Below are positions 19,480-25,217 of a DNA stretch of 64,000 nucleotides, in pieces. Numbering within the stretch: position 1 is the stretch's first letter; each line of letters starts with the position of its first letter. The stretch covers positions 35,620,440-35,684,439 of the forward strand of contig OX485807.1 in NCBI GenBank assembly GCA_950295325.1, read 5' to 3'. The notes under the pieces are model-generated. The model saw only the letters and a program-made list of their open reading frames with translations, ran no database searches and was not told where the DNA came from. Both the position numbers and the translations under genes were made by a program. This DNA comes from Polytrichum commune. Lineage: Eukaryota; Streptophyta; Polytrichopsida; Polytrichales; Polytrichaceae.

Positions 19480-20110
19480 GAGGCGTAACCCCAACTTTTG
19501 CAACTACTCAAAATGGCTTGCAAGTGTTTCACGTGCTCCTCTAGCGTGTCACTAAAGATAATAGCATTATTGATGTAGCAACATGTAAGGCCAATCCTCC
19601 CAACACTTAGTCCATCACATGTTGAAATTTAATAAGTGCATGCTTCATACTAAAAGCAATGAATTTCCCATGATAGAGTTGATCCTTCCAATCATAATCA
19701 ACTCTCCAAAATGCCGTCTTGACTCGATCTTGGAGCCAAATAGGCAGTTGGTGATAACTTGATATTAGATCCAATGTATTGAATATTTGAGCCAGCCCTA
19801 CCGCATCAAACAACCTTTTTGGGTTGGCATCTAATAATGATCCAACTTAGTCTTCTTATTTACTGGGTGGTAATTATTGCACTTATTTTTTCAATCAAGT
19901 TTCCAAAAATGTCTTTTTTTTTAAGGCATTACAATAGCATATGCATATTCCCCATTGGAGAGTTCAATTAGACCTGCTTTCAACAATTGTAGGCAACAAG
20001 TTTGAACCTTGATCCTTTCATAAATACTCAATTTGTAAAGACGCCTAAAAATGGGATAGTCATCCTCGACATGAATGTGAATTGGTTTGCCTTTATAACC
20101 TCCAAGGTCC
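19480..20110 (-). pseudogene. Gypsy reverse-transcriptase fragments (inactive)
   Basis: The minus strand carries RT landmarks in pieces: a PIFRRLYKLSIYERIKVQ-like start (about 20060-19990), FNTLDLISSYHQLPI (about 19780) and YINNAIIFSDTLEEHVKHLQ (about 19570). The catalytic YxDD box, normally Tyr-x-Asp-Asp, reads Y-I-N-N here, so the enzyme would be dead even without the frameshifts. Further downstream only scattered similarity is left. Confidence 0.75.
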
Positions 20111-20754
20111 TTAAGGCTAAAGGCGAAACATTCCCTATACGAGCGAACAAATGCATGTACCCTTTGTGCTTTATCATCCATTGGATTATGGCCCAAACTC
20201 CAAGACGAATCATCGAATTCAGTAGTGTCATTGTCCGTCTTAGGCTCACCATTGGGTGCCAACCAGTGTTTTTTTTTCAAAAGAAATGGGTCTCTACATT
20301 GGCTCTTGGCCCATCCATTGGCTAGCTTCTTTGGCAATTTGAGTTGGCTTGAAGGAGCCCTAGCTGGCCACGTGGGATGACTTAACATATGGCGAATGCG
20401 ACTAGATGTCATAGAAGGTTTGAGTATGTGGCGATATATAATTTTTTTGGGGCGAGTGTATGTGGCTATGTTTTGCCAACATAGAGTTGAAATATGGCCC
20501 CCACTTCCTACGTTGTTGATGTAAATGTGGCTAATACAACCCAAAGTACATCAAAATTTGGCTACATCTAAGATTCAATGTACAAAAAATATTTGTTCCA
20601 CGGCCCATGGGAAGAATGCTCAAAAATATGGCTACAGCCTATACATGTGAGGTATTCCTCCTCAAATACTAGGAGAGGGCCACAAGAACATGTCCCATAA
20701 CCCTTGTCCAAACCCCAATGAGCAGAAATAAAGGAAAAAAAAGACGGAGAAGGG

Positions 20755-22770: not shown

Positions 22771-22922
22771 CAGTAAACCTGAAAATGACATTGTTGTTAG
22801 CTAATTGCACAACTCCAGGGACAAGGCGCGCTCGCTCTTGGGAGAATTTAGCCGGAACTTGAGACATGTATGCGGCTCCAAAATGGGCCTCCCACGTAGG
22901 AGATGAGATGGAGGAATCATCT

Positions 22923-23151
22923 TGTTGGAAGTTACTGTTACACTCATCGGTCTCCATCATTACTTTCCTCTCCTTCCCTCCTTATCCCGATAAGATCTCA
23001 TCCATGATGTCAGCAAGTTGCTGAGTCATCTAGACCTCTCAATGCATCACTAAAGATCGGTGTTAGGTTAAGACTGAAGGTATAAGTATCGTAGAAGGAA
23101 GCATGTTCACTCTCTCTTGTTGAAATAAATATGTAATCTTTAGAAACAACA
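22923..23151 (+). repeat. Copia 5' LTR (229 bp)
   Basis: Direct repeat of 24986-25212. It starts TGTTGGAAG and ends AAACAACA, followed at once by the primer-binding site. A TATAAGTAT motif at about 23082-23090 is the likely TATA box of the sense promoter. Confidence 0.93.
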
Positions 23152-23163
23152 TGGTATCAGAGC
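23152..23163 (+). other. Copia primer-binding site
   Basis: TGGTATCAGAGC directly abuts the 5' LTR. This is the plant Ty1-copia site complementary to the 3' end of initiator methionine tRNA. Confidence 0.92.
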
Positions 23164-23257: not shown

Positions 23258-24334
23258 ATGACAGAAGTTAGAAACATCTCTGTTGGTGAAACCAACAAAC
23301 TAGATGGTGCATCCAACTACCACGTATGAGGCCTCAGAATGAGAGCAATATTTCGGAGAGAGAAATGGTGGGTGATTACAGAAAACAAGATTGAACCACT
23401 TGTATTTCCAACAATGATAGGTGGAATCAAAGTAGAAGAATGCTTAGCCTTAGAGTTTGAAATGACCAGAATGGGAAAACCAAGCATCTTCCTTGGAGCA
23501 AAACTAGTCTACGATCAAGATGGAATATGGATTCATCAGAGGAGATACATCAAGGATCTTCTCCAAAGGTATGGAATGGAGAACTGCAATCCACTCAGAG
23601 TCCCTATGAGTACAAGCGCAAATCTGAAAGCATATATGAGTTCTAAACTAGCTGATGCTCATCTCTTCAAATCAATTTGTGGATCTCTAATCTATTTCTG
23701 AAACACCCGCTTCGATATTTGCTTTGTGGTGAGCTGTTTGAGTAAGTTTGCAATTGCACCACATGAAGCTCACATGACCGTCCTCAAAAACATCTTGCGT
23801 TACTTGAAAGGCACTCTAGACTCAACCCTGTTCTACCCTTTTGGTGACGATCAACCCTTAGTTAGTTTTGCAGACTCAGACTACGGGGGATGCAAAGATA
23901 CAAGAAGATCTACTTCAGGTATAATCCATAAATTAGGGAAAGTTACAATTGACTGGAGAAGCAAGAGACAATCTAATGTTGCCTTATCAACAACTGAGGC
24001 AGAGTACCGAGTCTTGTGTGAAGCCACAAGAGATATTGTATACCTGAGAAGGTTGCTATCTGAACTAAGAATCATCGGAGGTGATCCTACGCATGTGCTT
24101 TGCGACAATTAGTCAAGTATCAGGCTAGTTCACAACCCTATTCTTCATGAGAAGACAAAATACATCGAAATATACTACCATTTTGTGCACGAGAAATCTG
24201 CAAAAGGAGAGATTGAAGTGAGCTATGTACCCACATCCATTCAACAAGCAGACATTTTTACAAAGCCGCTCACGGCATACAGGCACGCCTGCCTGAGAGA
24301 GGAGGCTGGACTACTGAAACTTCCCTTAGGATAA
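23258..24334 (+). pseudogene. Copia gag/RT-RNase H fusion remnant
   Basis: The frame starts with ATG at 23258 and a gag-like N-terminus (KLDGASNYHV, then a stop where Trp is usual). A deletion junction near 23400-23440 leads into the last part of RT, marked by GKPSIFLGAKL. RNase H follows with FADSDYGGCKDTRRSTSG, STTEAEY and a C-terminal ADIFTKPL. In-frame stops occur near 23332, 23699 and 24110. The first 175 residues after the junction match Ty1-copia proteins well, but integrase and the RT catalytic box are absent, so it cannot encode an active polyprotein. Confidence 0.88.
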
Positions 24335-24950
24335 TCTCCCTCTAGTACTAGATTGTGAAGCTCTAGAATAAATCTTGCTTGCAGCAACAACTACATAATG
24401 CTCAGCCTCCTGGTAAGACTTAAAACTCTTATGTTCAGCTCCGCTAAACCCATCAACTTGAACCTTACATTCTGACCAACTTATATATACTCCTGGACGA
24501 TACCCACGTCTGACCGCATAATATTTTCCCGCACTTGACCTGTAAGTGTTGATAGAATCTGTAGAGCAAGGTTCGGGCTCAGGATGAAGAACGGGACTCG
24601 CCACACCCTCAGATTCGAACTCTCCCGGTGAATCTCCTGCAGCATCCACGAAAACTTCAGTCTCTCCTTCTGACAACTTCAACTCATCATCAAAGGACTC
24701 CTTCAACCAAGCATCAACGCCTTCAATTACGAAATCACACACCTGCCGAAGTGCGCCCACTAGGAACTAGATTCCTATGAGGAATACTTCCCACTGCAAA
24801 CGGACAAGCTTGAAGTTAGTTTCAGTGTAGAATCTGTAGAAGCCTCTGATAAGGCATTCAAAATGGTTCGTACAAACTTACCGTAGTCAAGTTCTCTATA
24901 TGTTGTTGAAGAGAACTGAACCATTGAGCAGGTTGACGAGAGTGAGACAT
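24326..24950 (-). CDS. Antisense gene in copia: hybrid-binding (Cauli_VI) domain protein, 2 exons
   Basis: Exons on the minus strand are 24882-24950 (23 codons from ATG) and 24326-24742; the intron is 139 bp with donor ACG|GTAAGT and acceptor GGCAG|GTG, phase 0 on both sides. The product is 161 residues. Residues about 24-90 are acidic. Residues about 96-140 form an RNase H1 N-terminal-type domain: KYYAVRRGYRPGVYISWSEC, then KVQVDGFSGAEHKSFKSYQE and AEHYV. The family (hybrid-binding domain, also in caulimovirus P6) binds RNA:DNA hybrids or dsRNA. Trp and the aromatic/basic residues typical of the fold are present; no RNase H catalytic domain follows on this strand. The stop overlaps the end of the copia RNase H frame by 9 bp. 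The ATG is 36 bp from the 3' LTR, so transcription would have to start in the LTR in antisense. Exon 2 alone has no internal Met, which supports the spliced start. The alternative is a captured host gene fragment that is not expressed. Confidence 0.7.
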
Positions 24951-24972: not shown

Positions 24973-24985
24973 GAGCAAGAGGAGG
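24973..24985 (+). other. Copia polypurine tract
   Basis: GAGCAAGAGGAGG lies directly before the 3' LTR, where plus-strand priming occurs in LTR retrotransposons. It is imperfect (one C). Confidence 0.7.
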
Positions 24986-25212
24986 TGTTGGAAGTTACTG
25001 TTACGTTCATTGCTCTCCATCGCTACTTTCCTCTCCTTCCCTCCTTATCCTGATAATCTCATACATGACGTCAGCAAGTTGCTAAGTCATCTGGACCTCT
25101 CAATGCATCACTAAAGATCGGTGTTAGGTTAAGATTGAAGGTATAAGTATCATAGAAGGAAGTATGTTCACTCTCTCTTGTTGGAATAAAGATGTAATCT
25201 TTAGAAACAACA
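24986..25212 (+). repeat. Copia 3' LTR (227 bp)
   Basis: Direct repeat of 22923-23151 with a 2-bp deletion and about 16 substitutions by eye. It is followed by the CATCT target duplication and then gypsy gag sequence on the minus strand. Confidence 0.93.
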
Positions 25213-25217
25213 CATCT

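Follow-up and report, generated by a model that had tools for sequence, protein, structure and literature searches.

A putatively spliced antisense gene for an RNase H1-type hybrid-binding domain in Ty1-copia retrotransposons of Polytrichum commune

A 2.3-kb deletion derivative of a Ty1-copia retrotransposon in the Polytrichum commune genome carries, on the strand opposite to its pol remnant, what is probably a dead copy of an accessory gene of a Ty1-copia group, one likely to be spliced and to make a protein that may bind RNA:DNA hybrids or double-stranded RNA (dsRNA). The identity of the antisense gene can be stated with high confidence, and profile and structure matches place that of its hybrid-binding domain (HBD) beyond doubt. 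Hybrid or dsRNA binding as the working function of the protein is argued by analogy, with chances that fall short of even. A wider scenario, in which an old spliced antisense gene common to diverged copia lineages would supply an HBD in trans and the host has since taken over the copy at C1:73925133, keeping it under selection after the element decayed, is offered as a tentative and rather unlikely extension.

Structure of the element and of its antisense gene

The window, meaning the whole stretch of 64,000 nucleotides analysed (C5:35620440-35684439 of a 408-Mb genome), contains an element with all of the Ty1-copia LTR hallmarks, namely an LTR pair, a 5-bp target site duplication, a primer binding site and a polypurine tract. 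Its features, in window positions, are as follows:

22918–22922, no strand: left copy of the target site duplication CATCT (sequence)
22923–23151, plus strand: 5' LTR, TG..CA, 229 bp, Ty1-copia (direct repeats, LTR search)
23152–23163, plus strand: primer binding site TGGTATCAGAGC (sequence)
23428–23437, plus strand: internal deletion junction (blastn against L009, the C7 copy)
23428–24334, plus strand: copia pol remnant, end of reverse transcriptase (RT) and RNase H, with stops at 23701 and 24112
24326–24793, minus strand: exon 2, with helix segment, acidic linker, HBD and serine-rich tail (sequence, alignment)
24395–24526, minus strand: hybrid-binding domain PF01693 (profile search)
24743–24744, minus strand: splice acceptor of the sequence-only reading, in the window and C4, absent from C7 and C2 (copy alignment)
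24767–24769, minus strand: in-frame TAG in exon 2 of the window copy, relatives open there (alignment)
24794–24881, minus strand: intron, 88 bp, GTAAGT..TTTGCAG (copy alignment)
24882–24950, minus strand: exon 1, 23 codons, phase 0 (copy alignment)
24977–24985, plus strand: polypurine tract AAGAGGAGG, adjoining the 3' LTR (sequence)
24986–25212, plus strand: 3' LTR, 227 bp (direct repeats), presumed site of the antisense promoter
25213–25217, no strand: right copy of the target site duplication CATCT (sequence)

The primer binding site is presumably the initiator-Met site typical of plant copia elements. An earlier sequence-only reading of the window had reported LTRs about 7% diverged and a sense pol frame broken by stops, and both observations hold, with 16 of 227 LTR sites differing (7.0%; K2P 0.075). 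The full-length copy on contig C7 (L009), whose LTRs are 97.1% identical, has the antisense gene at the same place, and the order of its domains, with the integrase (rve, 111-210) preceding RT (RVT_2, 508-752), together with the Pfam domain Retrotran_gag_2, identifies it as Ty1-copia. Missing from the window element are approximately 3.17 kb of this copy, from gag to RT, including the integrase and most of gag, and 10 bp are common to both sides of the junction (blastn). A palindrome, TGACGTCA, occurs in the 3' LTR of the window element and in both C7 LTRs, is absent from the window 5' LTR and from C2 and C4, and is a candidate two-way promoter element.

As that reading proposed, a copia family carries an intron-containing antisense gene, located between the RT/RNase H remnant and the 3' LTR and opening with an ATG exon of 23 codons that ends ACG|GTAAGT. 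Gene and pol meet tail to tail, the stop codon of the gene lying within the pol end with a 9-bp overlap in the window (read from the sequence); in the C2 copy the pol frame extends further at its end. The donor GTAAG is kept in all five copies retaining the stretch (the window, C7, C2, one C3 and one C4). The acceptor had been placed at 24743; copies and relatives point instead to 24794, 51 bases upstream, and to an intron from 24881 to 24794. The window, C7 and C4 all have TTTGCAG|TGG at this site, which is mutated in C2 and falls in a stretch missing from both C3 copies, and which is in phase 0 with exon 1 of the window, C2 and C4; exon 1 of C7 has a 2-nt deletion. The intron is longer in C4 (103 bp) than in the window, C7 and C2 (88 bp each). 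The segment that this acceptor opens, WEVFL..FLVGALRR, is conserved as coding in database relatives, and a Q precedes the W in all three relatives reaching past it (P0007, P0010 and P0013), matching CAG|TGG. Expression of the window copy through 24743, as a shortened protein that skips the stop, is extremely improbable: the GT at 24881 and the AG at 24744-24743 do join in phase, but this AG (as CAG) is confined to the window and C4 copies, its use would lose the conserved helix segment, and another acceptor lies upstream.

Nucleotide identity for exon 1, intron and exon 2, respectively, is 96, 93 and 95% between the window and C7, 81-82, 70-71 and 80-82% between C2 and either of these, 88, 63 and 76% between one C3 copy and the window, and 87, 77 and 70% between C4 and the window. 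C4 departs from the trend, its exon 2 being no closer to the window than its intron, because its exon 2 is rearranged.

Read from 24794, exon 2 of the window copy contains the in-frame TAG at 24769-24767, and on this gene model the window copy is therefore a pseudogene. The frame had been described as open, which stands for 24766-24326 (146 codons, stop to stop) but not for the whole exon; it appeared open because the acceptor chosen skipped the stop. The antisense gene is present, whole or partial, in all seven copies of the window's family (family A: the window, C7, C2, two on C3 and two on C4), these copies having been found via the gene itself. A search with the family LTR gave seven places in five elements, four of which are among the seven copies, the fifth being C4:47582336. 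The expectation that further family members would have the gene at the same place was borne out, and each of the seven own-genome copies has a defect in it:

Window: TAG in exon 2
C7: 2-nt deletion in exon 1
C2: acceptor lost
C4, copy L013: frame broken and cut
C4, copy L012: HBD end alone left
C3, both copies: truncation

Two minor observations concern these stretches. A tandem array with a unit of approximately 72 bp lies beyond the gag remnant of one C4 copy (L013:848-1454; self-alignment), and a 209-codon open frame on the minus strand of the window (19921-20550) resembles, by eye, a piece of a retroelement polymerase and has no Pfam match.

The encoded protein and its possible function

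The antisense HBD recognised from the letters alone was recovered by profile search, with PF01693 matching the window frame over positions 1-44 of 44 (E 3.1e-20; 72.6-74.7 bits against a curated cut-off of 21 bits), and by matches to the RNase H1 HBD structures 1qhk (aligned over 45 of 47 residues), 6vrd and 3bsu. PF01693 was the sole Pfam domain in the antisense proteins scanned, and no RNase H catalytic domain was detected. The predicted protein would comprise a short N-terminal helix, an acidic and probably disordered linker and the RNase H1-type HBD, with no catalytic part; in an AlphaFold model of the relative P0010 the helix (2-38) is predicted with confidence, the linker is disordered and the HBD scores weakly, at a mean pLDDT of 52.6. 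Helix hydropathy (KD19) reaches 2.91 in family B, making a membrane segment plausible there; values of 1.0-1.85 in family A and 1.56 at L014 are unconvincing in this respect. Comparison of the helices outside the HBD gave no support for homology between families A and B or between A and C, with hhalign scores of 12.1 and 13.9 lying within column-shuffled controls (95% points 13.7 and 15.2, maxima 17.2 and 20.4); B against C, run without a control, scored 9.2. The helices of L014 and L052 are alike (46% over 46 aa, E 1e-7, genome search).

Since 35 bp separate the start of exon 1 from the 3' LTR, the promoter probably lies in the antisense strand of the LTR, and a transcript starting there would be the most likely source of the protein. 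An intron antisense to the genomic RNA is not spliced out of it, so the antisense gene, intron included, would be inherited intact through reverse transcription, a pattern that illustrates one way for an intron to persist in a retroelement. Judging from its domain, the protein may bind the RNA:DNA hybrid of the element or dsRNA. It could then aid reverse transcription, giving in trans the hybrid grip that is missing from the RNase H of the element, or it could shield sense/antisense duplexes. The sequence-only reading had proposed action on RNA:DNA intermediates, packaging or host silencing, each of which would be a conjectural role.

Like eukaryotic RNase H1, the antisense protein has an HBD at full profile length; unlike it, the antisense frame has no RNase H catalytic domain, and its HBD is unsplit whereas that of the host is split by an intron. 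The P6/TAV protein of caulimovirids is larger and encoded on the sense strand, and in a scan confined to Pfam no match besides the HBD was found in the antisense proteins. P6/TAV is likewise an accessory protein of a reverse-transcribing element with an HBD-like motif that binds hybrids and dsRNA in vitro, but it is a multifunctional pararetrovirus protein (PMC5902531).

RNase H1 HBDs increase affinity and processivity (PMC12652420), and the homologous motif of cauliflower mosaic virus (CaMV) TAV has in vitro affinity for RNA-DNA hybrids and dsRNA (PMC5902531); together these facts favour an accessory protein that would act on the element's own nucleic acids. A role in silencing is weakened because RNAi suppression does not require the TAV motif (PMC5902531), and by this analogy silencing suppression is ranked lower than help with reverse transcription. 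The target might instead be a host factor, as in CaMV, where TOR is bound and activated by the TAV domain that contains the homologous motif, a domain described as unneeded for RNAi suppression (PMC5902531). We regard this as improbable, given that the antisense gene has no tie to TOR here and that its HBD aligns almost throughout with that of RNase H1. For the preferred reading, an accessory protein binding the nucleic acids of the element, function is directly testable here, as the domain can be recognised and work on RNase H1 has identified its nucleic-acid ligand.

Selection on the antisense frame

A dN/dS well below 1 had been named as a check on the antisense gene, and this is what pairwise NG86 estimates gave, much of the selection that they record predating insertion. 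For antisense exon 2, dN/dS was 0.229 between C7 and C2 (Fisher p 6e-10), 0.271 between the window and C7 (Fisher p 0.002), 0.261 between the window and C2, and 0.32-0.45 in pairs with the more diverged C3 copy. The HBD alone gave 0.057 for C7-C2, 0.047 for window-C2, 0.136 for window-C7 and 0.20-0.43 for the C3 pairs. Sense pol yielded 0.138 for C7-C2 and 0.53 for C7-window, and in the former pair the antisense frame, at 0.229, is thus conserved like other retrotransposon proteins. The five other frames of the C7-C2 pair had values of 0.91, 0.97, 1.05, 1.18 and 0.31, and each contains 7-20 stops in C2, against 0 in the antisense frame. Family B is weaker than A in this respect, with 0.90 and 0.61 for the whole antisense frame and 0.118 and 0.189 for the HBD. 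The antisense gene family looks old and selected.

The antisense RNA rather than a protein could be what matters, with transcription from the 3' LTR regulating the element via dsRNA and siRNA. This has been considered for antisense accessory ORFs (aORFs) of plant elements (PMC7264820); for LTR elements, antisense RNAs have been found to induce silencing or reduce retrotransposition, and antisense RNA can itself be harmful to retrotransposition, as exemplified by Ty1 (PMC12786077). Selection in family A, however, acts on amino acids, is uneven along the sequence and is strongest in the HBD, which renders an RNA-only role quite improbable.

Distribution, relatives and known counterparts

A genome search with PF01693 scored 31 candidates, of which 20 were matches, and the surroundings of all 20 (10-kb loci or the window) were analysed, with copia pol placed by tblastn. 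At 18 of these places the HBD follows copia pol on its 3' side, in antisense orientation; of the remaining places one is a host RNase H1-like gene (L041) and one is L044 (C1:71958203-71958304), in whose 10-kb stretch copia pol was not found. The 18 places are not independent, comprising family A (the window, L009, L010 and two in L011), family B (L039, L040 and L042) and an unsorted rest, and copy counts from the protein, family and LTR searches are lower bounds. Outside the window's family, pol is 22-49% identical to that of C7, with one 18-aa stretch of L048 at 72%. The HBD lies 205-421 bp from the recognised pol end in 15 of 18 rows (17 of the 18 places, the window left out, plus fragment L012), the outliers being L017 (817 bp), L046 (1017 bp) and L048 (1809 bp). 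At L048 the integrase is the only pol part recognised, at L014 the recognisable pol ends within RT, and at L042 the HBD accompanies a short pol piece next to another element. Fragments L012, L013 and L052 agree with the antisense pattern; in L013 the fragment is antisense to gag, pol not being found there, and L052:2015-2421 (C4, minus strand) is a decayed relict, antisense to copia pol, whose helix and HBD pieces are scattered over three frames.

The HBD could also be a passenger, a fragment of host RNase H1 captured and carried along without function. Plant LTR elements are known to capture genes (PMC7264820), and one host RNase H1-like gene with PF01693 exists (L041:3689-5174, minus strand; C3:6046088-6047573), with its HBD split over two exons by an intron and an RNase H core further on. 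Against such a captured fragment, which we consider very improbable, purifying selection is frame-specific, the gene keeps its position and strand across elements whose pol is as diverged as given above, the intron splits the host HBD but not the element HBD, and open relatives occur among database proteins.

An HBD-bearing element was present at 1 of the best 150 of 1204 RVT_2 candidates, a ranking skewed by low scores for broken RTs; therefore most copia elements here seem to do without an HBD, and those bearing one seem to be a minority. The copia contrast loci L049-L051 contain no whole HBD in their 2.5 kb, a scan that excludes a whole domain but not a relict, because it also missed the truncated pieces of L012 and L013. 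In an RT tree of 16 rows (L018 and L046, mostly unaligned, were excluded at the outset, and L047 and L048 have no such RT stretch), the HBD label takes 2 changes, a number as low in 13 of 500 shuffles; the 86-column stretch has too little signal to demonstrate a single HBD origin or to rule one out.

In a database of predicted proteins, which favours open frames, family A has 13 relatives, 10 of them with a whole HBD at 63-88% identity; no domain was called in P0013 and P0014, and P0015 (95 aa) aligned over the HBD only. Family B has six relatives (five with the domain) and L014 five (four with the domain). No relatives with genomic context were found in viral_contigs or genome_contigs. L014:4870-5283 (C1:73924869-73925282) encodes an open 137-aa helix-linker-HBD protein from an ATG, with one full-length match place in the genome and 76-96% identity to its five database relatives, in which the HBD is nearly invariant (P0022-P0025) or lost (P0026). 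The adjacent copia pol, to which the gene is antisense, is split among three frames and interrupted by 6-7 stops. A search of the 10 kb of L014 detected no LTR pair, as was also the case for L039. We hypothesize that this is a candidate domesticated retrotransposon accessory gene, and as such it would offer a case of the host taking over an antisense gene of this kind; the alternative is that open copies reside in active elements elsewhere.

The antisense ORF lies between pol and the 3' LTR, the placement that characterizes the aORF-3R class of plant elements. Grande, whose gene23 belongs to this class, is a gypsy element, and the gene described here further differs from aORF-3Rs by its conserved intron and by a recognised HBD, as against TRP28, SMC or no domain. 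Examples comprise maize Grande gene23, rice RIRE2, Silene Retand ORF4 (TRP28) and PvRetro13, which share with the present gene an antisense position between pol and the 3' LTR and conservation, and which are family-wide in their own elements; for Grande an antisense promoter of its own has been shown (PMC7264820, PMC11963269). Retand is a gypsy element, whereas the present element is Ty1-copia (PMC11963269). As far as the aORF-3R account in PMC7264820 extends, these proteins have no clear similarity to others, SMC and TRP28 excepted, and the function of the plant LTR antisense genes is not known. An AlkB-type demethylase aORF in orchid Ty3/gypsy elements is similarly an extra nucleic-acid-acting domain thought to help its element (PMC12786077), but the domain and the superfamily are different.

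Among retroviruses, HTLV-1 HBZ and HTLV-2 APH-2 are likewise antisense genes that lie close to the 3' LTR and are transcribed from there, transcription of APH-2 starting at several points in that LTR and giving a spliced transcript; they differ in being transcription regulators, HBZ with a bZIP, no HBD is named for them in the part of PMC10186651 that describes them, and we claim no sequence relation. In the open-access literature, to which our survey was confined (subscription papers and preprints being outside its scope), no report of an HBD in an antisense aORF or of a spliced aORF in copia was found in the portions covering such genes (PMC11963269, PMC8220671, PMC12786077, PMC3985635, PMC5603734). 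Antisense aORFs as such are already known; the combination of an HBD and splicing in copia is the apparently new part.

Separately, dense clusters of high-scoring copia RVT_2 matches occur, one on each of seven large contigs, as if marking centromeres, an arrangement perhaps reminiscent of mosses. L049, with no whole HBD in its 2.5 kb, is a cluster member. The clusters lie at:

C1:33.41-33.47M
C2:47.27-47.32M
C3:33.16-33.20M
C4:35.45-35.52M
C5:46.55-46.61M
C6:25.46-25.49M
C7:13.58-13.68M
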